From positions 2,026,501 through 2,090,500 of the forward strand of contig NZ_CP049889.1 in NCBI RefSeq assembly GCF_011299095.1: a stretch of DNA of 64,000 bases. Direction: 5' to 3'. Positions 33,586 to 49,231 of this stretch are shown here, piece by piece. Numbering within the stretch: position 1 is the stretch's first letter; each line of letters starts with the position of its first letter. The DNA comes from Jeotgalibaca porci. GTDB taxonomy: Bacteria > Bacillota > Bacilli > Lactobacillales > Aerococcaceae. The position numbers and the translations under genes are program-made. The notes under the pieces are model-generated. The model did not search any database. It was not told the origin of the DNA and saw nothing but the letters and a program-made list of their open reading frames with translations.

Positions 33586-33637
33586 TATTTTGCACTCCTT
33601 AAATTAGGCCGTGCAATCAACAGATTTTTGGGTACAC

Positions 33638-33973: not shown

Positions 33974-34142
33974 ATATGAAAAAAAATACTCTTGCTCCTT
34001 TTTCGCCATTCAAGGTAACTTCAATATAACATGAAATTCACATGGCGTTTTTTAGTTAGCGGTGGCTAACTTCATTATATAATCCACCGTAAAAAATATT
34101 ATTAGTTACATTTGTCATTATAGTCTTAACTTAAGAGTTGTG

Positions 34143-34174
34143 GCATTGCTTATTACATATGTAATAAGCAATGC
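34143..34174. repeat. Perfect 32-bp palindrome without loop
   Basis: GCATTGCTTATTACAT followed directly by its exact complement. It lies between the msr-mef region and cat, with no poly-T on either side. Long loopless palindromes are unstable and rare; it may be a fused pair of element ends. Confidence 0.6.
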
Positions 34175-34262
34175 GTTTTGTGAAGTAGTACACTTAAATT
34201 AACGGGCAGGTTAGTGACATTAGAAAACTGACTGTAAAAAGTACAGTCGGCATTGTCTCATA

Positions 34263-34913: not shown

Positions 34914-34920
34914 TTGATAT

Positions 34921-34957
34921 GCCTCCTAAATTTTTATCTAAAGTGAATTTAGGAGGC
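34921..34957 (-). promoter_or_regulatory. cat translational attenuation hairpin
   Basis: GCCTCCTAAATT (34921-34932) pairs perfectly with AATTTAGGAGGC (34946-34957). On the transcript this hides the AGGAGG of cat until a ribosome stalls in the leader, the classic inducible-cat mechanism. Confidence 0.9.
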
Positions 34958-34978
34958 TGACTTGTCTGCTTTCTTCAT
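34949..34978 (-). CDS. cat leader peptide (MKKADKSAS)
   Basis: Nine codons and a stop that overlap the 5' arm of the attenuation hairpin, with AAAGGA upstream. Chloramphenicol-dependent stalling here opens the cat ribosome site in characterised systems. Confidence 0.85.
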   Translation of the reverse strand: MKKADKSAS

Positions 34979-35017
34979 TAGAATCAATCCTTTTTTAAAA
35001 GTCAGTATTATTGTAAC

Positions 35018-36707: not shown

Positions 36708-36938
36708 ATATATTTTAAAAATACCCCACTTTATCCAATTTTCGTTTATTGAACTAATGGGTGCTTTAATAAAAACTAAAGTCGATTATAATCGGCTTAT
36801 TTTTTGTTGTGTGGGTGTCATAACTCAAGACTAATGATTATGTTGATAGTACATGATATTCAATGGCTTTTTTCATATCTATATCTTATGTTTATAAGTA
36901 AGATGATTTTTACAAAAAGACATAGTACCCATCAAATT
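36708..36938. other. Spacer right of the IS
   Basis: No gene. A small hairpin AAGTCGAT-TATA-ATCGGCTT with T run near 36780-36805 looks like a terminator. Confidence 0.45.
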
Positions 36939-37007
36939 AAAACGCATTTTAAGCTTCTTCATGGTTAATTACCCATCTATGAATCTGAAACAGCCTTAAA
37001 ATGCGTT
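36939..37007. repeat. Resolvase-linked hairpin, left copy
   Basis: AAAACGCATTTTAAG (36939-36953) pairs with CTTAAAATGCGTT (36995-37007). A closely similar hairpin stands at 48167-48236, also next to a resolvase 3' end. The two are direct copies flanking the cassette platform. Confidence 0.7.
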
Positions 37008-37020
37008 ATTTTTACCTCTA

Positions 37021-37112
37021 TATAATAGCGATAGAGGATGACTCTGCTAATACCGGTTATTTTAATCATTTCTTAGACGCTGTAGACTTGGCTAGCGTAC
37101 AGTTTCACAGAT
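37021..37112 (-). pseudogene. Serine resolvase C-terminal remnant
   Basis: Reads SQVYSV, stop, EMIKITGISRVILYRYYIE. This aligns to the C-terminal helix-turn-helix SQVYSVKEITEMTGISKATLYRYL of the intact resolvase at 48320-48883. Only about 30 codons remain, with an in-frame stop. It marks the left border of the platform as a decayed duplicate of the right border. Confidence 0.75.
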
Positions 37113-37174
37113 TGAGTAACATTACGTTAGTTTACGCATGATCTCCTACCCTCATTATATGAGGATGGGAATGA

Positions 37175-37726
37175 TCAAAAGCCTAATCGGAAGGTTAATA
37201 ACGTTTCACTAATCTCGTCTTCATTAATCCCGATGTAGCGTTTGGTAATCTTCTCGCTGCTGTGACCAAAGATTTCCATTAAGGTGGCCACGTCTTTGGT
37301 TTTCTTGTAATAGTGGTAACCGAAGGTTTTTCGTAGGGTGTGGGTGCCGATATCATCGCGCCCCAACAGGTTAGCGACTTTTTGAAACATCTGGTAGACC
37401 GTGTTGACTTCTAAATGGCCGCCCTTAGTACTGGGAAACAAGTAAGCCTCCGGATCTAAGGCTGCGGTATAGCCGTGAATCAAGTCCTGTAAGCTGCTTA
37501 AGTATAAAATGCGTGTTTTCCCCGTCTTTTGCTCCACGATGCGCGGGTTTTTTGAGGTAATCACGTCTTTTTTCTTGAGTTTGACGATGTCGGACATGCG
37601 CAGACCGCTGTTAATTCCGATTAGAAACAAGAAAACGTCACGTTCCGCATTTTTATTCCGTCGCAGGCAAAATAAAAAATCATTAATCTCCTGTTGCGAC
37701 CGTAGTGGCTGAACATTATAGCCCAT
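37175..37726 (-). CDS. Tyrosine recombinase, catalytic domain only (cassette integrase)
   Basis: 183 residues. All catalytic residues are readable: R43 (SGLRMSDIVKL), K67 or K70 (EQKTGKTR), H129 and R132 (GTHTLRKTFGYH), H155 (FGHSSEKI), Y164 (TKRYIG). The N-terminal core-binding domain of XerC/D and IntI is missing, so the protein is about 100-140 residues shorter than those. ATG after AAAAGGAGGG. It is transcribed away from the array and starts 27 nt from a site related to the array repeats, the layout of an integron integrase beside attI. Short relatives occur on Gram-positive plasmids. Confidence 0.85.
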   Translation of the reverse strand: MGYNVQPLRSQQEINDFLFCLRRNKNAERDVFLFLIGINSGLRMSDIVKLKKKDVITSKNPRIVEQKTGKTRILYLSSLQDLIHGYTAALDPEAYLFPSTKGGHLEVNTVYQMFQKVANLLGRDDIGTHTLRKTFGYHYYKKTKDVATLMEIFGHSSEKITKRYIGINEDEISETLLTFRLGF

Positions 37727-37753
37727 GACAATCCCTCCTTTTTAGTCTGTTCG

Positions 37754-37794
37754 AATACATGATTATAGTCATTATAACACGAAATCGTGTGTTT
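37754..37794. other. attI-like primary site beside integrase
   Basis: Arms AATACATGA and TCGTGTGTT match the outer arms of the T1 repeats (ATACAYGA / TCATGTATT) but with a longer centre. A perfect ACACGA-AA-TCGTGT palindrome (37777-37790) is embedded. It also covers the probable integrase promoter (TATAAT on the minus strand), so recombination or integrase binding could control its own expression. Confidence 0.55.
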
Positions 37795-37810
37795 AGGGGG
37801 AGTACAAAAA

Positions 37811-37866
37811 AAGAACCCTATAGGTATAGGATTCTTGATACATGATTTTATCCAATTTGATGTGTT
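37811..37866 (+). repeat. Cassette boundary repeat 1 (hairpin + T1)
   Basis: Hairpin AAGAACCCTATA-GG-TATAGGATTCTT, then the T1 core at 37837-37866 with arms GATACATGA and TTTGATGTGTT. First boundary of the array. Confidence 0.75.
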
Positions 37867-37907
37867 AGTATTTCTAAAAATAGATTTTAAACTAAATGAA
37901 TTTATAA

Positions 37908-38375
37908 TCATCTTGTATCTTGAAAAACCCAAGCAATTGCATATGAAAGAAAACCTATACAAATTACAAGTGTAAATAATACTACTCCTGAAACAAATAA
38001 ATTTAGTTCAATATCAAACGGTGGGTTAAGGAGATTATTTATAAATACAAAAATACCTAAAGCAATAAACAAACTAATAATCGTAGACTTATAGGAGACG
38101 ATACTTGCAAAATAAGCATTATTTTTCTCTCTTTCATCAGCAGCACTAAACTCACCTTGCTTCAATGAATAACTTTTATCTTTTTTACTAAGTACCCATC
38201 TACTAATTAGAAAAACAATCAAGTAGATCAAAAATATGCTTGAAATAGTGCCTGTTGTAAATTGGCTCCCATCATTTGTGTACTTAACATTCGTTACGAA
38301 AACTTCAATAATTACAGCAGCGAATAATGAGACCAATATTAAATTTCCAATAGCTTCAAATATAATTTTTCTCAT
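37908..38375 (-). CDS. Membrane protein, partner of XRE regulator
   Basis: 155 residues with four hydrophobic helices (about 10-28, 43-60, 95-115, 125-148) and a cytosolic loop GEFSAADEREKNNAYFA. The DEREKxxxxxA pattern is typical of small DUF2178-like membrane proteins encoded beside Xre-type regulators. It overlaps nothing but lies 3 nt after the xre gene, same strand. Function unknown. With xre it forms array unit 1, read opposite to most units. Confidence 0.75.
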   Translation of the reverse strand: MRKIIFEAIGNLILVSLFAAVIIEVFVTNVKYTNDGSQFTTGTISSIFLIYLIVFLISRWVLSKKDKSYSLKQGEFSAADEREKNNAYFASIVSYKSTIISLFIALGIFVFINNLLNPPFDIELNLFVSGVVLFTLVICIGFLSYAIAWVFQDTR

Positions 38376-38378
38376 TCG

Positions 38379-38582
38379 TTATTCTCCTCTAAAAAATAAT
38401 TGATCAATTTTAATATTTAATGCACTAGCTAAATCCATGGCAAGTAGTAATGATGGGATATAACTTCCTTTTTCCAATGATAATATTGTTTTTCTTGTGA
38501 CTCCTACTTTATTTGCGAGATCTTCCTGTGTTAAATGTTGTTCTTTTCTTTTTTCTCTCACTTTATTTATAATTGTTGCCAA
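38379..38582 (-). CDS. Small XRE/Cro-type regulator
   Basis: 67 residues, a single helix-turn-helix (LTQEDLANKVGVTRKTILSLEKGSYIPSLLLAMDLASALN), typical of stand-alone Cro/YozG-like regulators. It has its own promoter and operator upstream. Co-transcribed with the membrane protein gene. Probably autoregulatory, since a perfect inverted repeat overlaps its -35. Confidence 0.88.
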   Translation of the reverse strand: MATIINKVREKRKEQHLTQEDLANKVGVTRKTILSLEKGSYIPSLLLAMDLASALNIKIDQLFFRGE

Positions 38583-38620
38583 AATAGGCCTCCCTTACGT
38601 TACTTACAATCTATATTCTT

Positions 38621-38659
38621 AATATACTTCACTATAAAAGTGTAGTCAACTACACTTTT
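38621..38659 (-). promoter_or_regulatory. xre promoter with overlapping operator
   Basis: On the minus strand TTGACT (38644-38649) and TATATT (38621-38626) are 17 nt apart. AAAAGTGTAGT / ACTACACTTTT (38636-38659) is a perfect 11-bp inverted repeat with a 2-nt centre across the -35. Confidence 0.8.
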
Positions 38660-38669
38660 AGGTATATAT

Positions 38670-38729
38670 GAATCCCTTATAGAATCTTCTTAAGTGCTCG
38701 ATACATGATTCTATGTAATTTAATGTATT
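38670..38729 (+). repeat. Cassette boundary repeat 2 (T1)
   Basis: T1 core at 38700-38729, arms GATACATGA and TTTAATGTATT. The preceding hairpin is degenerate. A weak T2-like palindrome follows near 38760. Confidence 0.75.
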
Positions 38730-38865
38730 GAAATAAAGAGATGAATTACAAATGATGATGTCAGTTTGTTATAATAAAAATTGAATAAACTTATATAACG
38801 TATTTAAGTAAAAAAAAATGCTCACGTGCTTTTGATTCGTTTATGACACATTTAGGAGGGATTTC

Positions 38866-39039
38866 ATGAAAAAAGATATCTTTAAACACCCGTCTTTTTA
38901 CATAGCTATAGCTAGTTTTTTTATCGGATTTTTTTTTATTTTTCAAGAAGGATCTTATATGCGTTTGAATAGTTACCTTTGGCAATTAAATTTTATTTTT
39001 AATCTTAATATAGCTAGAAAAGCAGCTCCAAAAAAATGA
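38866..39039 (+). CDS. Small membrane protein (57 aa), array unit 2
   Basis: MKKDIFKHPSFYIAIASFFIGFFFIF begins it: a positively charged start and one transmembrane helix, then a short basic tail ending ARKAAPKK. The ATG has an excellent TTTAGGAGGG site 8 nt upstream. It is the only coding frame that fits between repeats 2 and 3. No homologue recognised. Single-helix peptides in such arrays can be toxins, but nothing here proves that. Confidence 0.6.
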   Translation: MKKDIFKHPSFYIAIASFFIGFFFIFQEGSYMRLNSYLWQLNFIFNLNIARKAAPKK

Positions 39040-39103
39040 ATTTTTTTTAAAATTAACTGTTACACACAAAAAATTAAAGAACTTGCTCTGCAGATTTAAA
39101 AAA

Positions 39104-39159
39104 AAGAACCTTGTTAATACAAAGTTTTAGATACACGATTCTAAGCAATTTCATGTATT
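39104..39159 (+). repeat. Cassette boundary repeat 3 (hairpin + T1)
   Basis: Hairpin AAGAACCTTGT-TAAT-ACAAAGTTTT, then T1 at 39130-39159 with arms GATACACGA and TTTCATGTATT. A T2 palindrome follows 13 nt later, giving the fullest composite site in the array. Confidence 0.8.
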
Positions 39160-39172
39160 TATAAAGCAGAAA

Positions 39173-39208
39173 CTGAGTTTGTCACATTAAGAATTGAGTA
39201 AAACTCAG
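39173..39208 (+). repeat. T2 palindrome a
   Basis: CTGAGTTTGTC...GAGTAAAACTCAG: outer arms CTGAGTTT and AAACTCAG are perfect complements. Same orientation as the other T2 copies. Confidence 0.75.
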
Positions 39209-39291
39209 ACAAATAATTAATAAATTATAATACTAACCAATAAAATTAAATGAATCATATAGATCGGTTGACGGTTTATATGATTTTTTTA

Positions 39292-39341
39292 TTGACATAT
39301 ATCAGTACCTGATATACGATAATCGTATCAGGTGCTGATAT
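39292..39341 (+). promoter_or_regulatory. padR promoter and operator
   Basis: TTGACA (39292-39297), 17-nt spacer, TACGAT (39315-39320). A long inverted repeat ATATCAGTACCTGATATACGAT / ATCGTATCAGGTGCTGATAT (39299-39341) covers it, one mismatch and a 2-nt indel apart. A PadR autoregulation site is likely. Confidence 0.75.
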
Positions 39342-39374
39342 AACTGTAGCCGATATGATTTCAAGGAGGGCAAT

Positions 39375-39713
39375 ATGAATAAGAAAACAACAAAAGTGCT
39401 GACACAGCCAATGTATTATATACTTTTAAGTTTAAAAGAAAAAAGACATGGATATGAAATTATGCAATATATAGATTGGCTTACTGATAGCCGTGTGAAG
39501 GTAGGACCAGGAACACTGTATTCACTTCTTTCTCGTTTTGAAGATGATAAGCTTATAAAACTTGTCTCAGATGATGATAATAAAAAGACTTATATAATTA
39601 CAGATGAAGGTAAAGAGAGATTAAATCAAGAAGTAAAGAGATTAGGACAATTATTAGAAGATGCAAAGCTAGTAGAGGGAGGTCAAGAAGATGAATTTCA
39701 AGATAGAAAATAG
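39375..39713 (+). CDS. PadR-family regulator
   Basis: 112 residues of the PadR winged-helix family: YYILLSLKEKRHGYEIMQYIDWLTDSRVKVGPGTLYSLLSRFE begins the fold and KKTYIITDEGKERL is the wing. The ATG has AAGGAGG. Overlaps the next gene by 23 nt. PadR genes are commonly fused in operons with DUF2812 genes in Firmicutes, which is the case here. The operator above indicates autorepression. Confidence 0.9.
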   Translation: MNKKTTKVLTQPMYYILLSLKEKRHGYEIMQYIDWLTDSRVKVGPGTLYSLLSRFEDDKLIKLVSDDDNKKTYIITDEGKERLNQEVKRLGQLLEDAKLVEGGQEDEFQDRK

Positions 39714-41151
39714 ATTTTTAGATATAACAAATTATCGATTAGTAGAGAAACACTTTGAAAAAATGGCTAGTCTTGGGTGGATGATCGATAAAATAACAAT
39801 GGGAAGCTTGTTTATATATAAGAAAATAGATCCTGAAGAACTAGACTTTTCAATATCTCCATATGAAGTTGAAACAGCATTTACTGTAAAGAGTAAAGAA
39901 GAGTTAGAAGAGTTTCAATCTGTATGTGAGTCAGTAGGCTGGAACTATGCTATGAAGGCAAGTGATCTTCATATTTATTTCAAAAAGGCTGGAACAGAAG
40001 TGGTAGATATATCAACAGATGAAGAAGATGAGTTCAACACATTAGAAAGAATAGCTAGAAAACAATTGATATCATCTTATATCTTAATTCCTTTTTATAT
40101 ATACTTATCGTGGGCAATTCTAGGTGGAATATTTAAAGATATTCAAACTTTACAAAATGGAATGGTTCAGATAATAGCTCCTGTAATACCGATATTTCTC
40201 ATATCAGCAATTTATCAAATAATAAGAATAAAAAAATTCTTAAAAATAAACAGGAAGAATATGGAACTCGGAGATTCATTAGAATATGTACACTCAAAAT
40301 TTTACTTTGAAAAGGCGACTTCTTGCATATATTTATTATTCCTGATTTTATTTGTTTCATATAGTTTTTATTCAGCGTTTATATTAAACTCTAAGATTAT
40401 TTTAATAGGATTTGTTCCTCTAGTAATAGGAGTAACAATAGGTATATTCTATAAAATCTTCATAAAACCATCTAAAAAAACTGTCAAATATAAGAAGGTG
40501 TTCTTAGGTCTAGCTCTTATACTATCAACACTAGCATCTATAAGTATAACTTTTATAAGTATCAATGCATTTGCAATGGATAGCAATAATCATGATATAG
40601 AAGAATACAAAGTACTTTCAGCTAATGATTTTAAAGAAAAACCTTCTGAAGATGAAGGAGATTTGATGAGAAATACTAGTTTTCTTATTCCAACATCTTA
40701 CACATATTGGTCTTGGCCTAAAGGCGATATCTCTGTAAAGACTGAGTATTCAAATGGACTTACAGAAGGAATAGCTAAAAACCTAGTAGTGAGGTATATA
40801 AAGCAAGCTGAGAAATCTGTTGAGAATAGGATATCTTGGGAAATAGAGATTTTAGTGGAAGAAGATATCTATGATTATTCTCTAGAATCAAATGGTATAA
40901 CAGAAGAAGAATTTGATCGTTTCAAGGTAAAATCAATTAAAGAAGCAGTAAAAGAAGCTATAAAGATAGCAAAAGAAAAAGCTATAATTAAGGACGATAA
41001 AAATCTATGGGATCTTGATGAAGTATACTTCTTAAACTATCGAAAAGATGAGATAGTTATAAGAAAAGGTAAAGAAGTGTTCTATATACATGGATTAGAT
41101 TTTACCGATCTTAAAGTGATAGAGATAATAAAAAAGAGATTAGATTTATAA
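39691..41151 (+). CDS. DUF2812 membrane protein
   Basis: 486 residues. The N-terminal DUF2812 domain (NYRLVEKHFEKMASLGWMIDKI...FIYKK..PEELDFSISPY) is followed by two pairs of transmembrane helices (about 130-175 and 210-260), another helix near 280, and a long C-terminal extracytoplasmic or cytosolic domain. Usual DUF2812 proteins are shorter (about 190-350), so this carries an extra C-terminal domain. The PadR partner overlaps its start. Role unknown, possibly envelope stress. Array unit 3, bounded by T2 sites on both sides. Confidence 0.8.
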   Translation: MNFKIENRFLDITNYRLVEKHFEKMASLGWMIDKITMGSLFIYKKIDPEELDFSISPYEVETAFTVKSKEELEEFQSVCESVGWNYAMKASDLHIYFKKAGTEVVDISTDEEDEFNTLERIARKQLISSYILIPFYIYLSWAILGGIFKDIQTLQNGMVQIIAPVIPIFLISAIYQIIRIKKFLKINRKNMELGDSLEYVHSKFYFEKATSCIYLLFLILFVSYSFYSAFILNSKIILIGFVPLVIGVTIGIFYKIFIKPSKKTVKYKKVFLGLALILSTLASISITFISINAFAMDSNNHDIEEYKVLSANDFKEKPSEDEGDLMRNTSFLIPTSYTYWSWPKGDISVKTEYSNGLTEGIAKNLVVRYIKQAEKSVENRISWEIEILVEEDIYDYSLESNGITEEEFDRFKVKSIKEAVKEAIKIAKEKAIIKDDKNLWDLDEVYFLNYRKDEIVIRKGKEVFYIHGLDFTDLKVIEIIKKRLDL

Positions 41152-41163
41152 AATCTAATACCA

Positions 41164-41199
41164 TTGAGTTTGTCTTAATGTCAATTAAGTAAAACCCAA
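41164..41199 (+). repeat. T2 palindrome b
   Basis: TTGAGTTTGTCTTAAT / AATTAAGTAAAACCCAA with a 4-nt centre, 13 nt after the DUF2812 stop. No T1 site accompanies it. Confidence 0.8.
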
Positions 41200-41287
41200 G
41201 ATTGTAAATTGATGAACATTAGTAGATAAATGCGACATTAAAATAATATGGATATATGAATAAATATAGATTTTACGGAGGTTGAAG

Positions 41288-41779
41288 ATGCGAAATATTT
41301 ATATAGATAGAACAGAATTTACTGGAGCTATAAGTGTATTTTCAAAAGATACTGAGATTATTATATCAGCAGGTACAACAATTTATTCTATGAGTGTTGG
41401 TGATAGAAATGAGGAGTATCAAAGATATGCTAACGATTATGATATTCAATTTATATTTGATGATTATATTCCACATTTAGAATTTTATACGGTTCCACAG
41501 GTAGATATTATGGCAAAAGATAGTAGAGGTGGATTTATCGGAACCATTGGCCAATCATGTGACTTAGAAAGTAACGCACCAATTTGTTATATCAATAAGG
41601 ACTTAGAGTGCTTTATAATCGCTGAAAACGGAGCAGATTTTCTGAGTAATATAGAATCATGGCAAAACAATTTGAAACCCTATAATAAAATCATCTTTTA
41701 TCGTTCAAAAGTAGAAGCAGAAATGAAACTAGAATTTATAGATTTATCTGATATAGGAACAGATGAAATTAATCTATAA
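41288..41779 (+). CDS. Hypothetical protein, array unit 4
   Basis: 163 residues, acidic, no membrane segment or signal peptide. A C-terminal stretch ICYINKDLECFIIAENGADFLSNI resembles the end of SMI1/KNR4-type immunity proteins, but the N-terminal signature is not clear, so this is only a hint. The ATG at 41288 is chosen over a TTG at 41282 because GGAGG is 6 nt ahead of it. Bounded by T2 copies b and c. Probably a stand-alone cassette gene. Confidence 0.7.
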   Translation: MRNIYIDRTEFTGAISVFSKDTEIIISAGTTIYSMSVGDRNEEYQRYANDYDIQFIFDDYIPHLEFYTVPQVDIMAKDSRGGFIGTIGQSCDLESNAPICYINKDLECFIIAENGADFLSNIESWQNNLKPYNKIIFYRSKVEAEMKLEFIDLSDIGTDEINL

Positions 41780-41856
41780 TTTTTAATACACATAATGAAT
41801 AAAAATATTAATTATGTCGCATTATTAGAATTATACATCGTTAAAAAATTTATAAT

Positions 41857-41890
41857 CCAGTTTGTCTTAATCTCAAATATGACAAACTCA
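41857..41890 (+). repeat. T2 palindrome c
   Basis: CCAGTTTGTCTTAAT / ATATGACAAACTCA. Arms AGTTTGTC and GACAAACT are perfect complements. Confidence 0.75.
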
Positions 41891-42174
41891 ACAAAAGAAC
41901 CAAAATGCTTTTACAGCCAAGAGAATCGTAAGAAGGTTCATTTAGTTAAAATCTACTTCGAGAACGCACTATTTTGTAGAAAAATTCCCAATTTTTCCAA
42001 GAACGATTAATTTATTCAAGAAACCAGCTTAAATTATAGAGGTATGAATTATTCAGGTTTTATTATAAGAAAAAATATAAGTTCATTTCCTTGTGATATT
42101 TTTCATTTTCTATATAATAATTATATAAAGTTATTTTAAAGGTAACTATTGTATAAAAAGAAAGGTTGATATTA
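41891..42174. other. Spacer with IS1380-type solo right end
   Basis: No gene is supported. At 42043-42057 TATGAATTATTCAGG is identical to the right inverted repeat of the IS at 35024-36701, but the adjoining IS body is absent. It marks an old insertion or deletion that may have brought in the dehydrogenase gene. Confidence 0.7.
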
Positions 42175-43230
42175 ATGAGAGCGGCAAGATTTTATAATGC
42201 AAAAGATATTCGTGTGGAAGACATCGAAGAACCAAAGCTAGTTGGTGACGATGATGTTAAAGTGCGTGTAGCTTGGGCGGGTATTTGTGGTAGTGACTTA
42301 CATGAATATTTAGCAGGGCCAATCATAGCTCCAGGCGATGAACCTGATCCACTTACTGGTCAAAAACGTCCTATTACCATGGGACATGAATTTTCAGGTG
42401 TTGTTGAAGAAGTTGGTAGTAACGTTAAGACAGTAAAACCAGGTGACAAAGTAGCAATTAATCCACTTATCACAAGTGGTAATCATGATAATCGTTTATA
42501 TGATATGTATAAAGGCTTCCAATTCGTTGGTTTAGGCTCAGATGGTGGATTTGCTGATTATACAGTTGTTGACAAGATTAACGTGGTTAAAGTCAGTGAT
42601 GATGTTTCTTTAGAAATTGCTGCGTTAGTAGAGCCGACTGCTGTTGCGATGCAAGCTATTCGAGAATCAGAGATGGAGTTTGGCGAAACGGTAGCAGTGT
42701 TTGGTGTTGGTCCGATTGGATTAGTAAATATTATTGCTGCACGTGCAGCTGGTGCTAAAGAAATTTTTGCATTTGACTTATCGGAAGAGCGACTAGCAAA
42801 AGCGAAAGAAGTTGGAGCAACTCATGTCGTTAACTCGGGTGAAGTTGATCCGAATGAGTACATTAAAGAACGTTACCCAGATGGAGTTGATCGAACATTT
42901 GAAGTGGCTGGCGTACCTGTAACATTAGAACAAGCAATTCAAGTGACTCGTCCACGCGGTACAGTCACTGTGGTCTCTATTTTTGAAGAACCCATTGACT
43001 TTAATCCAATGTTATTAACAGCTTCTGGTGTTCGTATATCATCAACACTAGCGTATGAAGATGATATTTTTGATCTAACGCTGAAGATGATTGAAAATAA
43101 TCAAATTGATGTATCACCACTTATTACTGACCATATTGAGCTAGAAAATATCGTTGAAAATGGTTTTGAATCATTAAGCAATGATAAGAGTCAAGCGAAA
43201 ATCCTTGTAAAACTTAGTGGCGACAAATAA
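42175..43230 (+). CDS. Zinc-dependent (R,R)-2,3-butanediol dehydrogenase-like
   Basis: 351 residues of the medium-chain dehydrogenase family. The catalytic zinc motif is GHEFSGVVEEVG, with the first ligand Cys in AGICGSDLHEY. The NAD-binding motif is VFGVGPIGLVNIIAARAAGAKEIF. The insert GPIIAPGDEPDPLTGQKRPITMGHE is typical of butanediol dehydrogenases, which interconvert acetoin and 2,3-butanediol. The ATG follows AAAGG. Codon use is more GC-rich than neighbouring array units. A solo IS end upstream suggests it entered separately. Confidence 0.88.
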   Translation: MRAARFYNAKDIRVEDIEEPKLVGDDDVKVRVAWAGICGSDLHEYLAGPIIAPGDEPDPLTGQKRPITMGHEFSGVVEEVGSNVKTVKPGDKVAINPLITSGNHDNRLYDMYKGFQFVGLGSDGGFADYTVVDKINVVKVSDDVSLEIAALVEPTAVAMQAIRESEMEFGETVAVFGVGPIGLVNIIAARAAGAKEIFAFDLSEERLAKAKEVGATHVVNSGEVDPNEYIKERYPDGVDRTFEVAGVPVTLEQAIQVTRPRGTVTVVSIFEEPIDFNPMLLTASGVRISSTLAYEDDIFDLTLKMIENNQIDVSPLITDHIELENIVENGFESLSNDKSQAKILVKLSGDK

Positions 43231-43247
43231 AAATTAACGGATTTTAA

Positions 43248-43290
43248 CAGCCTATACTTTACAATTATATAGTAAAGTATAGGCTGTTTG
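43248..43290 (+). terminator. Terminator after butanediol dehydrogenase gene
   Basis: CAGCCTATACTTTAC (43248-43262) pairs perfectly with GTAAAGTATAGGCTG (43272-43286), short T run after. 43291-43442 shows no gene. Confidence 0.85.
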
Positions 43291-43442
43291 ACTGATTTTG
43301 CATGCTGCACACATCGTTTATATTATATGTCAGCATATGCAACAATACCAATCGGCTCTCAGTTTAATAATTATTTTACTAATTTATATGAAAGCAGATA
43401 GAATGTACTTCTTGAATATTTCTATATTTTTTAATTATATCC

Positions 43443-43523
43443 AATAAAAAGAAGCCCTTAATTTTTTTAAAGGCTTCTTTTTATTGGGTTTTCAATACAC
43501 GAAACTTATGCAATTTCATGTAT
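43443..43523 (+). repeat. Cassette boundary repeat 4 (hairpin + T1)
   Basis: Strong hairpin AATAAAAAGAAGCC / GGCTTCTTTTTATT (43443-43484), then T1 at 43494-43523 with arms AATACACGA and TTTCATGTAT. A degenerate T2 follows at 43534-43565. Confidence 0.8.
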
Positions 43524-43574
43524 GAATCAAACTTTGAGAATTGTCTTAATAGTGATTATTTTGGATACATTTCA

Positions 43575-44024
43575 TTAATCAGTATTTACTAAGTGAATTA
43601 TATGATTTTTATTTTTGAAACCAGCTAGCTCACTAAAGATACTAGGTTTTAATTCATTTATAACTTTTAAAGATTCCCATGTAATATCTTGATCATCATT
43701 ATCTATACCATGATATTCTTTTTTCTCTTTTATTTTACCTTTATAAACAAAAAGAAATTCATGAAAATCCTTTTTTGATTGTTTTTCTAAGAAAAAATTT
43801 TCAATTACTGAAAATAATTCTACATCATAAAATTTTTCTCCAGTTTCTTCCAAAACTTCACGTTTTACTGCTTCACTAGTAGTCTCTGAAAATTTTACTC
43901 TACCACCTGGTAAAGAAATTATTCCATCAACGTATTTAGAAACTAGTAAACTATTTTGGCTTTCTATCCATGCTGCTACCCTAATATTTAATTTTCCTGA
44001 ATCTGTATCTAAAGTTAAATCCAT
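43575..44024 (-). CDS. NUDIX hydrolase
   Basis: 149 residues. The Nudix box is complete: GGRVKFSETTSEAVKREVLEETGEKF fits G-x5-E-x7-REUxEExGU. Hydrolyses a nucleoside-diphosphate-linked substrate that cannot be predicted. RBS AAGGAGTAA. Minus strand, one of two units in the array read toward the integrase. Bounded by T1 repeats 4 and 5. NUDIX genes are frequent cargo of cassette arrays in other bacteria. Confidence 0.9.
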   Translation of the reverse strand: MDLTLDTDSGKLNIRVAAWIESQNSLLVSKYVDGIISLPGGRVKFSETTSEAVKREVLEETGEKFYDVELFSVIENFFLEKQSKKDFHEFLFVYKGKIKEKKEYHGIDNDDQDITWESLKVINELKPSIFSELAGFKNKNHIIHLVNTD

Positions 44025-44077
44025 ATTAAATTACTCCTTAACGTTTATTTAAAATAATAAAAATGAGTTAAAAATAT

Positions 44078-44129
44078 ACCTTATTTTAAAAAGGTTCTTG
44101 ATACACGACTTTATACAATTTCATGTATC
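44078..44129 (+). repeat. Cassette boundary repeat 5 (hairpin + T1)
   Basis: ACCTT...AAGGT hairpin, then T1 at 44100-44129 with fully complementary outer arms GATACACGA and TCATGTATC. Confidence 0.8.
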
Positions 44130-44232
44130 TAGAATAATTGAATAGTTATAGGAATTATAGAATTAAAAGAAAATAAAGTTTATGATAGAAGTATGTTATA
44201 ACAAAGAAATTCATACTAGAATGGGGATTGTT

Positions 44233-44712
44233 ATGAAAAAAAATAATGTACTTCTATGGACTATTTTGACAGGTATCGTTGTTACAATATTTCTTATTTT
44301 TGGTCCATTAAAAAAAGATGTATGGGATATAAATGCTAGTAAATTAGAAGATTTAACTGATAGTTTGAGCGATCCTATGGTTATTAATGACTTTTCAAAA
44401 TGGACTCCTTTTGAATGGGACACGCTTTATAGCTTTTCACCATATACTACAAAAGAAACTATATATGACATTGTTGGATACAAATGGGACAATATAAGTG
44501 AAACTGTAAATGATAATATGAATCAAATTGTATTTGTTAAAGACGGAAAAGTTGTCTGTTATCTTTATGGATATCCTGAAAACACCAAATCCAGCTATAA
44601 TTTTGGCGAATATGAAGGTGAATACATAACAGTTAATTCACAACAAAAATTATCCTTTGATACTGAGATTGGTGCAGATGGTATCAGATATTTTAATTCT
44701 ATTAATCATTAA
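44233..44712 (+). CDS. Single-pass membrane or secreted protein, array unit
   Basis: About 159 residues. The N-terminus KKNNVLLWTILTGIVVTIFLIFG is an uncleaved signal anchor, followed by an extracytoplasmic domain rich in acidic and aromatic residues (WTPFEWDTLYSFSPYTTKETIYDIVGYKW). In-frame ATG codons exist at 44182 and 44221; 44233 after GGGGATTG gives the best membrane anchor. No family recognised. Bounded by T1 repeats 5 and 6. Confidence 0.65.
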   Translation: MKKNNVLLWTILTGIVVTIFLIFGPLKKDVWDINASKLEDLTDSLSDPMVINDFSKWTPFEWDTLYSFSPYTTKETIYDIVGYKWDNISETVNDNMNQIVFVKDGKVVCYLYGYPENTKSSYNFGEYEGEYITVNSQQKLSFDTEIGADGIRYFNSINH

Positions 44713-44715
44713 TTA

Positions 44716-44756
44716 AATACGATTCTCGATACACTTTTTGAGCATTTTCATGTATT
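44716..44756 (+). repeat. Cassette boundary repeat 6 (T1)
   Basis: T1 at 44728-44756, one base shorter than the rest, arms GATACAC and TTTTCATGTATT. The preceding hairpin is weak. Confidence 0.7.
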
Positions 44757-44825
44757 AATTTGAAATATAGTTTACTGTTTTTTTTAAAATATTTACATAA
44801 TAAACAGTTTTGAAAGGAGTTTAGT

Positions 44826-45152
44826 ATGTTTAATTTATTTGATTACGGCTGGCTTAATATGAGTAGTTTAGTTTTTGGTTTAATTGCTTGGATAATTCCC
44901 ATTTTTAATATTATACGACACAAGAAAAGAGGGAATAATCATTCAATCCCGACATTATTAAGTATGGGATCTTGTGCAATTGCTTTGTGGTCTCAACTAT
45001 CCTATAACATATATTTAATTGAAATCAATGATTATCCTGCTCTTCTGGATACGGTAGGTACTTTAAATTGGGTCGCAGCGATACTTATTTTCACAACAAT
45101 TATTTTGAATGTTATTAGCATAACTTTGAATAGAAATGTTGTCTCAGACTAG
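44826..45152 (+). CDS. Three-helix membrane protein, array unit
   Basis: 108 residues with three transmembrane helices (about 12-29, 42-64, 77-100) and a short basic loop RHKKRGNNHS after the first. Similar small proteins occur in Bacilli, but I know of no role. The ATG has AAAGGAG 8 nt upstream. Bounded by T1 repeats 6 and 7. Confidence 0.7.
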   Translation: MFNLFDYGWLNMSSLVFGLIAWIIPIFNIIRHKKRGNNHSIPTLLSMGSCAIALWSQLSYNIYLIEINDYPALLDTVGTLNWVAAILIFTTIILNVISITLNRNVVSD

Positions 45153-45257
45153 CCCAGTTGTTTTGTAGAATAACTTCTATCTTAAATAGACAGCTTCAAA
45201 GAATTGAGTTCCTGTATTTTACGCTGTCGTTTATATTTTACTGAAATTCTAAAGAAA

Positions 45258-45313
45258 AAGAACCTTGGTTTATCAAGGTTCTTAATACATTAATCTATGT
45301 AAAATAGTGTATT
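45258..45313 (+). repeat. Cassette boundary repeat 7 (hairpin + T1)
   Basis: Perfect hairpin AAGAACCTTG-GTTTAT-CAAGGTTCTT, then T1 at 45284-45313 with arms AATACA and TGTATT. A degenerate T2 (CTGAGTTTAT...) follows at 45328-45360. Confidence 0.8.
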
Positions 45314-45384
45314 TTAAATTGGTAGGTCTGAGTTTATCCCAACAAGAATTCAGTAGAATTGTTTGTATTCAAGGAGGTGTTACC

Positions 45385-45843
45385 ATGCCAACAAAACCAA
45401 AAATAAAAATAATAGATAATAATGAACTGAGAAAAGAAATTGATGAAATATATGAAAATATGAATCAGATAAACGTAGCAAAATGGTCTTTATCAATGGC
45501 AAAACATATCTTGAAAATTGTTAATATAGATTATAAATCAATAAATGAGATAGAAGAAGGATTTAGGATAAATGAATTATGGCAAATAAAAGAAGCCAGA
45601 ATGTACGATGTAAGACAAGCAGGTTTCAAAATCCACAAAATTGCTCGTGAAAGTGATTCAGAAATAAGTAAAACTGCATTAAGGGTAGTTGGCCAAGCTG
45701 TAGGAAGTGGCCATATGAAAGAACACGCAATGGTAGCTTCTGATTACGCAGTAAAGACTATAGGATTAATGAGTTCTAATGATTTAGAGTCAATTACTCT
45801 TGAACGAGAATGGCAACTTAATGAAATAAATAAATTTTTATAA
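45385..45843 (+). CDS. Putative immunity protein (Imm5-like)
   Basis: 152 residues, helical. The segment AGFKIHKIARESDSEISKTALRVVGQAVGSGHMKEHAMVASDYAVKTIGL matches the repeat-like helices of a family annotated as putative immunity protein. The ATG at 45385 follows AAGGAGGTG. No cognate toxin is adjacent, so it would be an orphan immunity gene, a common kind of cargo in defensive arrays. Bounded by T1 repeat 7 and T2 d. Confidence 0.7.
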   Translation: MPTKPKIKIIDNNELRKEIDEIYENMNQINVAKWSLSMAKHILKIVNIDYKSINEIEEGFRINELWQIKEARMYDVRQAGFKIHKIARESDSEISKTALRVVGQAVGSGHMKEHAMVASDYAVKTIGLMSSNDLESITLEREWQLNEINKFL

Positions 45844-45878
45844 AAAGATATTAAAATAACCTCTTCAAATTCAATAAA

Positions 45879-45912
45879 TGAGTTTGTCTTAATGCTAATT
45901 AAGTAAAATTCA
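45879..45912 (+). repeat. T2 palindrome d
   Basis: TGAGTTTGTCTTAAT / AATTAAGTAAAATTCA. It separates the immunity and methyltransferase units; no T1 here. Confidence 0.8.
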
Positions 45913-45941
45913 AAATATATGGGAAAAAAGGAGACTATATA

Positions 45942-46718
45942 ATGTCAAAATATAACGATTTTAATAAAGAAAGATGGAATAGAATTTCCAGAAATAAAGG
46001 GAATTCTTTTACCATTCCAATAACCCACAAAGAATTAGTGGAAGCTAAAAATAAACCGATTGAAGTCGCACTGACAGTTGGGAAAGCTGTTCCAGTAGAA
46101 TGGTTTGAAAAAGCCAAAGGAAATAAACTTTTAGGACTAGCTTGTGGTGGTGGTCAACAAGGGCCCATATTTTCTATTAAAGGTTACGAAACAACAATAA
46201 TGGACTTTTCTGAAGCACAGCTTGATTCTGATCGACTTGTTGCTGATAGAGAAGGCCTAACAATGACTACCGTTCAAGCAGATATGACAAAAAAATTTCC
46301 ATTTGATGATGAAAGCTTTGATATTATTTTTTGTCCTGTATCGAATGCGTATGTAGAAGATTTAGAAAACATGTGGCAAGAATCCTTTAGAGTCTTAAAA
46401 AAAGGTGGCTTACTAATGGTGGGATACATGAATCCCTGGATTTATATGTATGATGCAGATACTGTTTGGGATTACCCTGAAAAAGAACTGTTTTTGAAAT
46501 ATAATTTGCCATTTAATTCAAGACAATTAGAAGAAGAGGGAGTCATTAAAATATACCCAGAGTATGGATACGAATTTAGTCACACACTAGAATCGCAAAT
46601 AGGTGGGCAGCTAAAAGCTGGTTTTGCAATGATTGATTTTTACGAATCTCAAGATTCAAGAAATAGACTGACCAAATATGGAAAAGACTACCTAGCAAAT
46701 CTTTGTGTTAAATTGTAA
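45942..46718 (+). CDS. Class I SAM-dependent methyltransferase
   Basis: 258 residues. SAM motif I is LLGLACGGGQQGP, motif II region TIMDFSEAQLDSD, motif III VQADMTKKFPFDDESFDIIFCPVSNAYVED, then FRVLKKGGLLMVGYMNP. Soluble. The substrate is unknown; the UbiE/small-molecule type is more likely than DNA because no target-recognition domain is present. The ATG follows AAAGGAG. Bounded by T2 copies d and e. Confidence 0.85.
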   Translation: MSKYNDFNKERWNRISRNKGNSFTIPITHKELVEAKNKPIEVALTVGKAVPVEWFEKAKGNKLLGLACGGGQQGPIFSIKGYETTIMDFSEAQLDSDRLVADREGLTMTTVQADMTKKFPFDDESFDIIFCPVSNAYVEDLENMWQESFRVLKKGGLLMVGYMNPWIYMYDADTVWDYPEKELFLKYNLPFNSRQLEEEGVIKIYPEYGYEFSHTLESQIGGQLKAGFAMIDFYESQDSRNRLTKYGKDYLANLCVKL

Positions 46719-46730
46719 TCTTTCACTGCA

Positions 46731-46764
46731 TGAGTTTGTCTTAATGCCAATTAAGACAAACTCA
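46731..46764 (+). repeat. T2 palindrome e (best copy)
   Basis: TGAGTTTGTCTTAAT-GCCA-ATTAAGACAAACTCA: 15-bp arms, perfect, 34 bp in all, the same overall layout as lox-type sites. Confidence 0.85.
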
Positions 46765-46793
46765 GAAAAAGTGCTAGAAGGACTGACAAGATT

Positions 46794-46827
46794 AAGATAG
46801 AGTAGATTTTATGCTCTATCTTTTTTC
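46794..46827 (+). terminator. Terminator after methyltransferase unit
   Basis: AAGATAGAG and CTCTATCTT with an 11-nt loop and TTTTTT. Confidence 0.8.
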
Positions 46828-46844
46828 TTTTTAAGATGAAAAAT

Positions 46845-46896
46845 AACCTTGATTACACAAGGTTTGGAACACAAGATTTTATATAATTTCATGTAT
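46845..46896 (+). repeat. Cassette boundary repeat 8 (hairpin + T1)
   Basis: AACCTTG...CAAGGTT hairpin, then a 31-nt T1 variant at 46866-46896 with arms GGAACACAAG and TTTCATGTAT. Confidence 0.75.
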
Positions 46897-47016
46897 GACA
46901 TTTACTAAATAACGAAATTTAATCAAACATGGTCTCTTGAATAAAGTGAAAAAATGAGCAATAATATCAATATCTATAAAGTTACATAAAAATAATAATT
47001 ATAAGGAGTTTAAAAA

Positions 47017-47169
47017 ATGAATAATATAGTTATTTTTTCACTTATTGCAACGCTATGTGTACTAATAATATCCCTTGCTCTAAGAATTAACCGGTTAAAA
47101 TCAGATGTTGATCTTATAAAAATGAAATTGAATACTATGAGTGAGCATGTTGATCATTTGAACAAATAA
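47017..47169 (+). CDS. Small membrane protein with coiled-coil tail (50 aa)
   Basis: MNNIVIFSLIATLCVLIISLALRI is one transmembrane helix, followed by a short heptad-like tail (LKSDVDLIKMKLNTMSEHVDHL). The ATG has TAAGGAG at the right distance. It is the only coding frame between T1 repeats 8 and 9. No homologue recognised. Shape resembles small regulatory membrane peptides. Confidence 0.6.
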   Translation: MNNIVIFSLIATLCVLIISLALRINRLKSDVDLIKMKLNTMSEHVDHLNK

Positions 47170-47224
47170 GAATCCTTATTTTATAAAGGTTTTAGATACA
47201 CGTTTTTAAGCAACTTCATGTATT
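47169..47224 (+). repeat. Cassette boundary repeat 9 (hairpin + T1)
   Basis: ATCCTT...AAGGTT hairpin, then T1 at 47195-47224 with arms GATACACG and TTCATGTATT. Last recognisable T1 copy. Confidence 0.8.
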
Positions 47225-47304
47225 GAAGTAAACTTACTTGCAAGTGCGTTTTTGGCTTCAAGTTAAAAACATATTATTATTCTACATAATTTCCTTCCTA
47301 ATCA

Positions 47305-47344
47305 AATAAAACTCCTTTGGAAATTGTTCTAAAGGAGTTTTATT
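47305..47344 (+). terminator. Terminator-like hairpin upstream of toxin-antitoxin unit
   Basis: AATAAAACTCCTTT and AAAGGAGTTTTATT, perfect 14 bp. It would insulate the toxin-antitoxin unit from upstream transcription. Confidence 0.75.
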
Positions 47345-47374
47345 ATTTTGTATTTCTACTAAAAATAGAGTACA

Positions 47375-47397
47375 ATGTAATTACTAAGTAATTACAT
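47375..47397 (+). promoter_or_regulatory. Antitoxin operator
   Basis: ATGTAATTAC-TAA-GTAATTACAT, perfect 10-bp inverted repeat just upstream of the toxin-antitoxin genes. Probably the autoregulatory site. Confidence 0.65.
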
Positions 47398-47433
47398 CGT
47401 GCTTACGAAGTGTTAAATGATGGAGGAAATAAT

Positions 47434-47763
47434 ATGATTACAAAAACAAGAAAACAAGGAAATTCTATTATGTTAACTGTCCCTAAAGAATTCGATGTTC
47501 CCAATGGTGTTGAAGTAGAAGCTAAGCTTGTAGAGAATGGTATACTTTATGAGTTTGTAGAGCCTAAAAAAGAGTTTTTTGATTTTAGTGAAGATGTTTT
47601 GGCTGATATTCTTTCAGAAGGTTATAATAAGCATGAGATATTAAAAGAATTTAGAAATAGAAAAAATGAGTTAACTTCTGCATTTAGATCTATTGCTGAA
47701 GAGACTGTTGCAAATTCTAAACCGATGACAAAAGAGGAGTTGGCAGCAGAAATTGGCTTATGA
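47434..47763 (+). CDS. AbrB/MazE-type antitoxin
   Basis: 109 residues. The N-terminal swapped-hairpin fold begins MITKTRKQGNSIMLTVPKEFDVPNGVEVEAKL; the acidic, flexible C-terminus would bind the toxin. The ATG follows TGGAGG. It overlaps the toxin gene by 11 nt. An inverted repeat upstream suggests autoregulation. Stabilising toxin-antitoxin units are typical of large cassette arrays elsewhere. Confidence 0.85.
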   Translation: MITKTRKQGNSIMLTVPKEFDVPNGVEVEAKLVENGILYEFVEPKKEFFDFSEDVLADILSEGYNKHEILKEFRNRKNELTSAFRSIAEETVANSKPMTKEELAAEIGL

Positions 47764-48040
47764 GATTCTACCTTCTAAACACGTAATAAAGTATCTAAAA
47801 AAATTAAAAGAGAAAACATTAAAAGAACAATTTTTAACGATAATTTATGATGAGATAGCAGTTCGTCCTTATTCGGGAGAAAAAAAAACGGGTGATTTAT
47901 CAGGAATTTGGGCTATGGGATTCAAGTATGCAGGTACGACATATCGCGTTGCATATGAAATTAAAGATAATGCAGTGATACCTATCTTACTATGTGGAAC
48001 GCATGAAAATTTTTATGAACAATTAAAAAAAATTAGGTAA
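47753..48040 (+). CDS. RelE/ParE-superfamily toxin
   Basis: 95 residues. MAYEILPSKHVIKYLKKLKEKTLKEQFLTII opens the RelE/ParE fold, and GIWAMGFKYAGTTYRVAYEI and VIPILLCGTHENFYEQLKK close it. Members either cleave mRNA on the ribosome or inhibit gyrase; which applies cannot be told. TTG start inside the antitoxin 3' end, so it is translationally coupled. The last unit of the array before the resolvase. Confidence 0.85.
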   Translation: MAYEILPSKHVIKYLKKLKEKTLKEQFLTIIYDEIAVRPYSGEKKTGDLSGIWAMGFKYAGTTYRVAYEIKDNAVIPILLCGTHENFYEQLKKIR

Positions 48041-48319
48041 GAACCCAACGTTATCAACTTGAGAGGATAGACTACACTTTAAAAGATAATTTTTAATAGC
48101 TGAGAGTTGTAATACCCTATATTTTTAAACCACTAACCTATATATTTATGAAAAATAGAAAAAATTAAAATGCATTTTAAGCCTCTTTCAAATCAAACGC
48201 TTCATCCTTATGCACAAAGAGGGCTTAAAATGCGTTATTTTATATTGTTTTTTAGTAATAATAAAAAAATCACTCTCATTCTCCCATAAATATTATAGAT
48301 TCCTAAAGATTAAAATAGA
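48041..48319. other. Right platform border with resolvase-linked hairpin
   Basis: AAAATGCATTTTAAGCCTCTTT (48167-48188) pairs with AAAGAGGGCTTAAAATGCGTT (48216-48236). It is the right copy of the hairpin at 36939-37007 and the two are direct repeats. No T1 or T2 copy is seen after the toxin gene. Confidence 0.65.
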
Positions 48320-48883
48320 TTATTCCCTATTGTCTTTTAAGTAGCGGTAGAGTGTTGCCTTGCTAATACCAGTCATTTCCGTAATTTCTTTTACGCTATA
48401 AACCTGACTTTTATACAATTTTACTGCTCGATCAACATCTTTCTGGTTCACACGTGGACGGCCACCTTTACGACCTCTCGCACGTGCACTTTTCAAACCT
48501 TCTTTGGTACGTTCAACAATTAAATCACGTTCGAACTGACTAAATGCTTGGAAGACAGTCATCATTAAGCGTCCGTGAGGCGTGCTGGTATCGAAGTTTT
48601 CTTTCAAGCTCACCAGCTTAACATGGTGTTCTTCAAAATAGGTAACAAGATCAATCAAATCCTTTGTACTACGACCCAATCGAGAGAAACTTTCCACAAT
48701 TACCGTATCTCCCGGACGAATTTTATCTTTTAAACGATTTAGTTGGGGACGATCCGCTTTGGTTCCCGTCATTTTCTCAGTTAGGATTTCATTACAATTT
48801 TGTTCATTGAGTAAGTCTAATTGACGATGTAGTTCTTGTGAACGCGTACTCACCCGGGCATAACCATAAATGTATCCACTCAT
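48320..48883 (-). CDS. Serine resolvase/invertase, Tn3-type
   Basis: 187 residues. The catalytic serine (Ser12) is in YGYARVSTRSQELHRQ; other landmarks are DTVIVESFSRLGRSTKDL and FDTSTPHGRLMMTVFQAFSQFERDLIVERTKEGL. The C-terminal helix-turn-helix is SVKEITEMTGISKATLYRYL. An upstream in-frame ATG at 48919 exists, but AAAGGAAG precedes the one at 48883. A decayed C-terminal copy at 37021-37112 marks the other side of the cassette platform. Confidence 0.93.
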   Translation of the reverse strand: MSGYIYGYARVSTRSQELHRQLDLLNEQNCNEILTEKMTGTKADRPQLNRLKDKIRPGDTVIVESFSRLGRSTKDLIDLVTYFEEHHVKLVSLKENFDTSTPHGRLMMTVFQAFSQFERDLIVERTKEGLKSARARGRKGGRPRVNQKDVDRAVKLYKSQVYSVKEITEMTGISKATLYRYLKDNRE

Positions 48884-49231
48884 GCTTTTCTTCCTTTCGT
48901 ACTTTAATTCTGGTTTCATTGTATCATAAAAGGGTGTTATAGATACGTAGTTAATGTAACAAGTTATGATACAGAATATCGCCTCTTTTATTTAATAAAA
49001 GAGGCGATATGATTTTGTCTCATAATCGATTGTTTTTGATACATAGCAACGCCGATAAAAAATGAAACCTTTTTTGATTCTTTCTTTTTAGTTAAATACG
49101 TAAGTGACTAAAGAACTTTGGATAAGATTTAATTCGTTAAATACTATTTCATAAAAATTTGAAAGGGAAAATACTAACAATCCGAATTTTATTGGGATTG
49201 TTAGTATATTTTTATTTCCGCTCGTTGGCTA
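48884..49231. other. Right island edge: palindrome and terminator
   Basis: No gene is present. It contains possible resolvase sub-sites (TGTTATAGATAC, GTAACAAGTTATGATAC at 48930-48975), a perfect palindrome ATATCGCCTCTTTTAT-TTA-complement (48976-49010), and a terminator ATACTAACAATCC / GGATTGTTAGTAT with T run (49171-49212). The island probably ends within this stretch. Confidence 0.55.

Follow-up and report, generated by a model that had tools for sequence, protein, structure and literature searches.

The window analysed here, a stretch of 64,000 nucleotides (positions 2026501-2090500 of contig C1) from the 2.35-Mb Jeotgalibaca porci genome (G000), very probably carries an integron-like array, in which gene units are exchanged between genomes at a short repeat, the 28-bp T1 site; the exchange is likely carried out by the 183-residue tyrosine recombinase (integrase) encoded beside them. 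Comparison between genomes shows that the platform consists of the integrase gene, about 111 bp of intervening DNA, an attI-like T1 site and then cassettes ending in T1.

The integrase gene starts at 37726 and faces away from the array, as an original prediction made from the window alone had proposed, and all nine T1 cores of that prediction are present in a single orientation (Table 1). T1 is usually 29 nt long, and the copies at 43494 (30 nt) and 44728 (28 nt) are indel variants. A T1 pattern allowing up to three mismatches matches five times in the window, versus zero in 100 dinucleotide shuffles. A weight matrix, trained partly on the array's own T1 sites, gave eight matches at a score of at least 20, which correspond to seven T1 sites (45284 scored on both strands) and miss both indel variants. 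The matrix had no such match in 100 Markov copies of the window (best score 18.7), and its best score outside 37000-48100 was 6.5. A core-like match at 46423 sits within the methyltransferase gene and was excluded from the T1 count. The cargo lies on both strands and encodes an XRE regulator and membrane protein pair, membrane peptides and proteins (labelled "membrane" by eye), PadR, DUF2812, alcohol dehydrogenase, NUDIX, Imm5-like and methyltransferase proteins, and a ParE-like toxin with an antitoxin-like open reading frame (ORF). Two of the T1 units are split by a second repeat family, T2, that the original prediction had not listed.

Exchange at T1 was examined in 183 distinct T1 junctions, among which 943 pairs share the left neighbour and differ on the right and 74 pairs share the right neighbour and differ on the left. 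Agreement at position 8 was 99% in same-left versus 61% in same-right pairs, with 99% versus 59% at position 10 and 97% versus 28% at position 12. At position 23 the values were 83% versus 99% and at position 28 67% versus 93%, and across positions 19-23 same-right pairs show 99-100% agreement. Core positions 8 and 10-12 are inherited with the left neighbour and positions 19-28 with the right, and positions 16 and 17 (agreement just 39-49% and 50-61%) follow neither. This linkage places the switch between neighbours in the interval from position 12 to position 19. The same pattern was seen in a first set of 117 junctions, and a single-linkage repeat pointed in the same direction at position 12 (same-left 88% for all lefts and 77% for non-attI lefts; same-right 28% and 34%); as this repeat blurs the left clusters, we relied on the pair test instead. 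T1 is thus best described as a 28-bp site with arms at positions 2-12 and 19-29 and a 6-bp centre, which is the 11-6-11 geometry of dif. This site takes the place of the 30-bp palindrome with a 10-nt centre that had been proposed, and favours the accompanying suggestion of a dif- or lox-sized recombination site. The mixed inheritance at positions 16-17 fits a mismatched overlap resolved either way, and hence suggests that both strands are exchanged across the T1 centre.

Were the repeats instead terminators or repetitive extragenic palindromic (REP)-like elements, with cassettes shuffled by homologous recombination, a terminator-like hairpin on many T1 copies would be expected, and 84 of the 183 left flanks do fold stably (at -5 kcal/mol or below; 99 do not). 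This explanation is highly improbable, because the switch is limited to the centre of a 29-bp repeat, hairpin-less sites shuffle too, and it gives no reason for a near-constant distance to one integrase. A hairpin had been predicted in each composite of the array. It is present at many sites, but is degenerate by eye at 38700 and 44728, and a terminator scan calls it at three of the nine. We dropped the hairpin as a part of the T1 site because junctions without one shuffle as well.

The primary site was surveyed in fetched loci with a full-length integrase (at least 80% identity and at least 175 aa). In 46 distinct integrase-T1 junctions, which join many different first cassettes to the attI-like T1, the core begins 111 bp from the start codon in 39, 110 bp in four, 108 bp in one and 28 bp in two. 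In the two 28-bp cases (G050 and G084) the integrase-proximal T1-like site replaces the attI-like T1 as the point where a cassette is attached, a natural sign that the proximal site can recombine. It is the related site that had been noticed next to the integrase start, and it recurs, with exceptions, in 49 aligned upstream regions. Left flanks of the attI type account for 63 of the 183 junctions and have 43 distinct right partners, and in 94 junction pairs the 400-bp left sides are at least 97% identical while the right sides are below 60%. The minus-strand hairpin (37836-37811) would shield the integrase from read-through. Composites of the attI type also occur on small plasmids without an annotated integrase (L179, L180, L186 and L222, where L186 is part of its plasmid), one of them upstream of vga(C) in Staphylococcus aureus pKKS825. 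Such composites would need the enzyme in trans.

Near-identical units were found in different genomes and contexts, which argues for the predicted mobility of the cassettes. The NUDIX cassette (cassette 4), the fourth unit in the window, has a 99.8% identical counterpart in Trichococcus flocculiformis that covers 601 of 601 nt and differs in both flanks; there it directly follows an attI-type composite, and no integrase was found in the fetched stretch around it. G050 has copies of cassettes 8 and 9 at 99.7-100% identity. Unit 3 matches over 2,750 of 4,359 nt, with 39121-41897 being 99.6% identical to a G050 stretch (L035). Among the loci fetched by then, cassette 1 had relatives at 71-74% only, units 2 and 7 matched at their ends only, and units 5 and 6 had no match. 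Beyond the window, a CadD/ArsR cassette of 1198-1201 bp occurs at eight loci (92-99% identity) in Desemzia, Enterococcus, Marinilactibacillus and Tetragenococcus, next to several different neighbours on either side. A 3,348-bp stretch ending at the attI-like T1 is common to Enterococcus faecium pF179_1 and a Lactococcus lactis plasmid (99.7% identity), after which the first cassettes of the two plasmids differ. The integrase region of the window (36818-37855) is 99.3% identical to a Vagococcus fluvialis plasmid, and this identity ends at core position 19. A fixed gene order, with repeats serving only as terminators, had been named as an outcome at odds with mobile cassettes; we found near-identical cassettes with different neighbours and a switch inside the core. 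In short cassette families the longest ORF is on the plus strand in 27 and on the minus strand in 29; only this orientation count is used from a tally of 93 units in 67 families that merges some units, as the matrix misses indel sites (e.g., window 44100-46868).

T1 follows one integrase clade in a sample of 395 Lactobacillales genomes. With up to two mismatches it was found in 60 of them, with 498 matches versus one for a reversed-pattern control; this total was summed by hand, near-palindromic sites may be scored once per strand, and some contigs resemble concatemers. In 98 of the genomes there is an integrase match at E <=1e-30. At 86% identity or above and E <=1e-80, decayed copies included, there are 41 genomes and T1 is in all 41, the cut having been chosen after the list was seen; outside these it occurs in 19 of 354 (Fisher p 2e-41, for genomes that are not independent). 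Among the other 57 integrase-matched genomes T1 was found in four, namely G080 (86% fragment), G119 (decayed), G202 (53%, one match) and G372 (46%, one match), and in none of the remaining 53, which include G254 (72%, E 7e-87). As T1 is nearly absent from genomes with lower-identity integrases, relatives below about 72% identity seem to use other sites. Dispersal of T1 away from the integrase had also been named as telling against the array, and in the whole 2.35-Mb genome the pattern with up to three mismatches matches six of the nine array sites, all forward, and nothing beyond the array.

Two integrases that are 63% and 58% identical (L046:14001 and L047:14001), encoded on Vagococcus and enterococcal plasmids, lack a good T1 in their vicinity and have palindrome-like stretches of their own upstream, and perhaps represent further site lineages. 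In G000 itself, a short integrase (38%) lies about 5 kb from a dif-like site (C1:149870 and 154662), with the palindrome GATACACAATTGTAATTGTGTATCC upstream that is nearly identical in two relatives of the same genus (L029 and L031).

Several observations weigh against an exchange system built on T1 and this integrase. Orphan T1 sites occur in the 19 of 354 genomes without a close integrase, attI-type composites are found where no integrase was seen, and integrase fragments of 91-95% identity in G057 and G169 are unaccompanied by T1. Two further loci with a close integrase have no T1 in the fetched flank (1,500 and 250 nt). Within T1, positions 7 and 9 vary inside same-left groups (58% and 78% agreement), and in the first junction set four of 56 same-right pairs differ past position 23. 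In the loci fetched, near-identical copies were found for just cassettes 4, 8 and 9 and part of unit 3 among the nine window units. Seeding of the weight matrix from sites of this kind counts on the same side.

Some of these points would suit a dif-module system, in which T1 is a plasmid relative of dif acted on by XerC/XerD of the host, with the small integrase just carried along: T1 is present in genomes without a close integrase and, in its attI-type form, on small plasmids lacking an annotated one, and it shares the 11-6-11 geometry of dif and pdif given in an excerpt of PMC13141974. Such a system is nevertheless very unlikely here. The host has XerC-type proteins and its own dif-like site, ACTTAGTATAATATATATTATGTAAACT (at G000:C1:149870, located with a dif pattern), whose arms are unlike T1. 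The nine T1 sites point in one direction, whereas pdif modules alternate, according to the same excerpt (PMC13141974), and T1 keeps to one integrase clade (41 of 41), from which its 111-bp spacing hardly varies.

The catalytic motif of tyrosine recombinases is R-K-H-R-H/W-Y, and R43, K67, H129, R132, H155 and Y164 of the integrase are invariant in 16 aligned sequences. An excerpt of PMC8138268 names the RKHRH pentad plus the tyrosine for these enzymes, and states that they generally have a core-binding and a catalytic domain; the 183-aa integrase has room for the catalytic domain only. Its structure model (mean predicted local distance difference test, pLDDT, 85.9) is nearest to the solved folds of XerA (5hxy, template modelling score 0.72) and XerH (5jk0, 0.65; both query-normalised). 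Scores against NCBIfam models are all below the cut-offs (in brackets), with 87 bits for XerA-type (220), 66 for XerC (335), 29.2 for the integron integrase TIGR02249 (265) and 25 for the FimB/FimE type NF007371 (222).

A canonical integron, with an IntI integrase and folded, single-stranded attC sites, would have the same layout of integrase, attI-like site and cassette array, and the protein does match the integron integrase model weakly, aligning only at model positions 236-300. The score of 29 bits against a cut-off of 265 and a length too short for a core-binding domain make this explanation hardly credible, as does the site itself. Both T1 arms are conserved in sequence, the switch falls at the palindrome centre, and arm covariation is within the shuffled range at 13 of 14 position pairs (8-23 is slightly above, and 7-24 pairs in 44%), so that the arms do not covary like a folded attC. 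The I2 insertion, for extrahelical bases, is described as an integron integrase feature in an excerpt of PMC4792948.

For an integron-like array working at T1, we predict that the integrase binds both T1 arms and that the attI-like T1 is synapsed with the T1 of a circular or neighbouring cassette. Both strands would then be swapped across the 6-bp centre, with mismatches tolerated at positions 16-17, leaving each T1 a hybrid of half-sites from two cassettes. Since cassette genes are found on both strands, cassettes may carry their own promoters. The hairpin with which many cassettes end may act as a terminator outside the site.

A second integrase and site pair of the same family likely built the T2 units of the array. 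T2 (GAGTTTGTCTTAATNNNAATTAAG..., a near palindrome) occurs five times in the window. Identity with the G050 stretch L035 stops at 41897, just past T2 site c, and identity with another G050 stretch (L105) begins at 46731, at T2 site e, so T2 is a breakpoint as well. In L035 the last T2 is likewise followed by the 148 bp that lead from T2 site e to T1 site 8. The layout of T2 with an integrase is known from the only two loci found. In G054, 139 nt separate T2 from the start of an integrase that shares 36-40% identity with the T1 enzyme; in G143 the distance is 130 nt, to an 89% relative of the G054 integrase, a copy reported with three in-frame stops. No T2-type integrase was reported in G000 at E 1e-50, so the window T2 units look orphaned. 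Across the 395 genomes T2 (up to three mismatches) was found in 20, with one for the control. A 48-49% relative of the T2 integrase is found on Bacillus subtilis plasmids (records H141-H155), among them the plasmid of NCIB 3610.

The exact T1 pattern was found in 54 stretches of species genomes, all with names that we take to belong to the order Lactobacillales except one Proteus contig. This 10-kb contig (L065, stretch 34.6% GC) is labelled Proteus sp. FME41 and is possibly contamination. The attI composite is present in 160 of 72,556 plasmid records, led by Enterococcus (111), Carnobacterium (18) and Staphylococcus (10). Five enterococcal plasmid stretches encoding a close integrase were fetched, and in these the attI-like site is followed first by genes related to metals (mercury genes, CadD, P-type ATPases). 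Phage collections yielded one IMG/VR contig, zero with a narrower pattern, and three partial phage-record matches, and thus give little sign of a phage home for T1.

Table 1. Features of the T1/T2 array, in window positions.
Feature	Position	Strand	Evidence
Tyrosine recombinase (integrase), 183 aa, catalytic domain only	37175..37726	-	PF00589 E=2.5e-24; invariant catalytic residues; model pLDDT 85.9
Integrase-proximal T1-like site (AATACATGATT...; 37754-37781) and palindrome ACACGAAATCGTGT	37754..37790	+	Sequence; alignment of 49 upstream regions
Hairpin of attI-like composite, terminator-like on - strand	37811..37836	.	Terminator scan
T1 site 1 (attI-like), core 111 bp from integrase start	37837..37865	+	Site alignment, junction survey
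Cassette 1: XRE regulator (38379-38582) and membrane protein (37908-38375)	37866..38699	-	ORFs, Pfam
T1 site 2	38700..38728	+	Site alignment
Cassette 2: 57-aa membrane peptide (38866-39039)	38729..39129	+	ORF
T1 site 3	39130..39158	+	Site alignment
T2 site a	39175..39206	+	T2 pattern
T2 unit: PadR regulator (39375-39713) and DUF2812 protein (39691-41151)	39207..41165	+	Pfam
T2 site b	41166..41197	+	T2 pattern
T2 unit: 163-165-aa protein, no Pfam match	41198..41857	+	Pfam scan
T2 site c	41858..41889	+	T2 pattern; G050 comparison
Zinc alcohol dehydrogenase, inside segment from T2 site c to T1 site 4	42175..43230	+	Pfam
T1 site 4, 30-nt variant	43494..43523	+	Site alignment
Cassette 4: NUDIX protein (43575-44024)	43524..44099	-	Pfam; Trichococcus flocculiformis comparison
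T1 site 5	44100..44128	+	Site alignment
Cassette 5: membrane-anchored protein (44182-44712)	44129..44727	+	ORF
T1 site 6, 28-nt variant	44728..44755	+	Site alignment
Cassette 6: 108-aa membrane protein (44826-45152)	44756..45283	+	ORF, Pfam scan
T1 site 7	45284..45312	+	Site alignment
Imm5-like immunity protein, ahead of T2 site d	45385..45843	+	PF21805 E=1e-35
T2 site d	45880..45911	+	T2 pattern
Methyltransferase, between T2 sites d and e	45942..46718	+	PF08241
T2 site e	46732..46763	+	T2 pattern; G050 comparison
T1 site 8	46868..46896	+	Site alignment
Cassette 8: 50-aa membrane peptide (47017-47169)	46897..47194	+	99.7% identical in G050
T1 site 9; E. faecium plasmid similarity begins at site	47195..47223	+	Site alignment, plasmid comparison
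Terminal unit: antitoxin-like ORF (47431-47763; no Pfam match) and ParE-like toxin (47753-48040)	47224..48040	+	Toxin PF15781 E=3e-27

The flank at 30702-36704 is a mosaic. Its MFS- and ABC-F-type genes (30702-34013) are 99.5% identical to a Vagococcus fluvialis plasmid, it also holds a chloramphenicol acetyltransferase gene (34263-34913), and its transposase region (35023-36704) is 99.8% identical to E. faecium pS177. At the other end, from T1 site 9, a segment with the toxin-antitoxin genes and a serine resolvase (47196-49043) resembles many enterococcal plasmids. An Rfam scan of 37000-48500 gave nothing at gathering scores. A defence-island reading of the cargo was dropped, as PADLOC gave weak matches only among ten cargo proteins (the methyltransferase and the NUDIX protein).

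The array had been described as integron-like or pdif-like. Its organisation does resemble that of integrons and its site geometry that of dif, and by the features compared it falls in neither family. Like integrons, it has a tyrosine recombinase gene that faces away from the array and adjoins a primary site, small mobile units that each carry a site, cassettes of single genes or toxin-antitoxin pairs, and orphan arrays. By sequence comparison, the primary site receives cassettes (44 of 46 junctions at 108-111 bp, with two more loci without T1), and the cassettes are in tandem and mobile. Unlike those of integrons, the enzyme has a catalytic domain only and scores below the cut-off for the IntI family, the cassette genes lie in both orientations, and T1 is a short, sequence-conserved, two-arm site that is split between two cassettes and gives no sign of folded single-strand recognition.

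The dif module site is given in an excerpt of PMC13141974 as an XerC site, a 6-bp spacer and an XerD site. T1 shares with the Acinetobacter pdif modules (XerC/XerD) the 28-bp 11-6-11 form, exchange in the spacer and modules common to plasmids. It differs in having its recombinase encoded at the array and an attI-like primary site at a near-constant distance, in arms unlike the host dif, in the single rather than alternating orientation of the window sites, and in spacers that often differ at two positions. Invertases of the FimB/FimE type are tyrosine recombinases of about 200 aa without a core-binding domain. They are similar in size to the T1 enzyme (family model length 198-200), which falls far below their cut-off, and T1 direct repeats exchange units, with no inversion of a single promoter. 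XerA and XerH have the closest solved folds, but their chains are longer (about 270-350 residues) and contain further domains.

Canonical integrons are most prevalent in Proteobacteria, with some reported from Firmicutes, as stated in an excerpt of PMC8618304. Among the papers listed by searches of the open-access literature (preprints excluded), judged by titles and abstract starts, there is no apparent description of the T1 system. We consider it probable that T1 and T2 belong to a third, independently evolved class of cassette capture beside integrons and dif modules, native to Lactobacillales and based on a minimal recombinase family whose several lineages would each use an attI-like site and cassette sites of their own (T1, T2 and perhaps more). 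Its double-stranded 28-bp half-sites would have been moved across genera, chromosomes and conjugative plasmids, including with enterococcal metal-resistance cassettes. Gene shuffling in Gram-positive bacteria is usually credited to plasmids, transposons and conjugative elements. If our reading is right, a platform in Carnobacterium, Desemzia, Jeotgalibaca, Tetragenococcus and enterococcal conjugative plasmids would explain how small genes (for metal resistance, toxin-antitoxin, NUDIX proteins and membrane peptides) move singly. With exchange confined to a 6-bp window and an attI-like position that hardly varies, the mechanism can be tested directly. The T1 system would be an independent example in which cassettes are captured without folded single-strand sites. 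It could therefore be used to test which integron features are essential, and it would stand as a Gram-positive counterpart of integrons.

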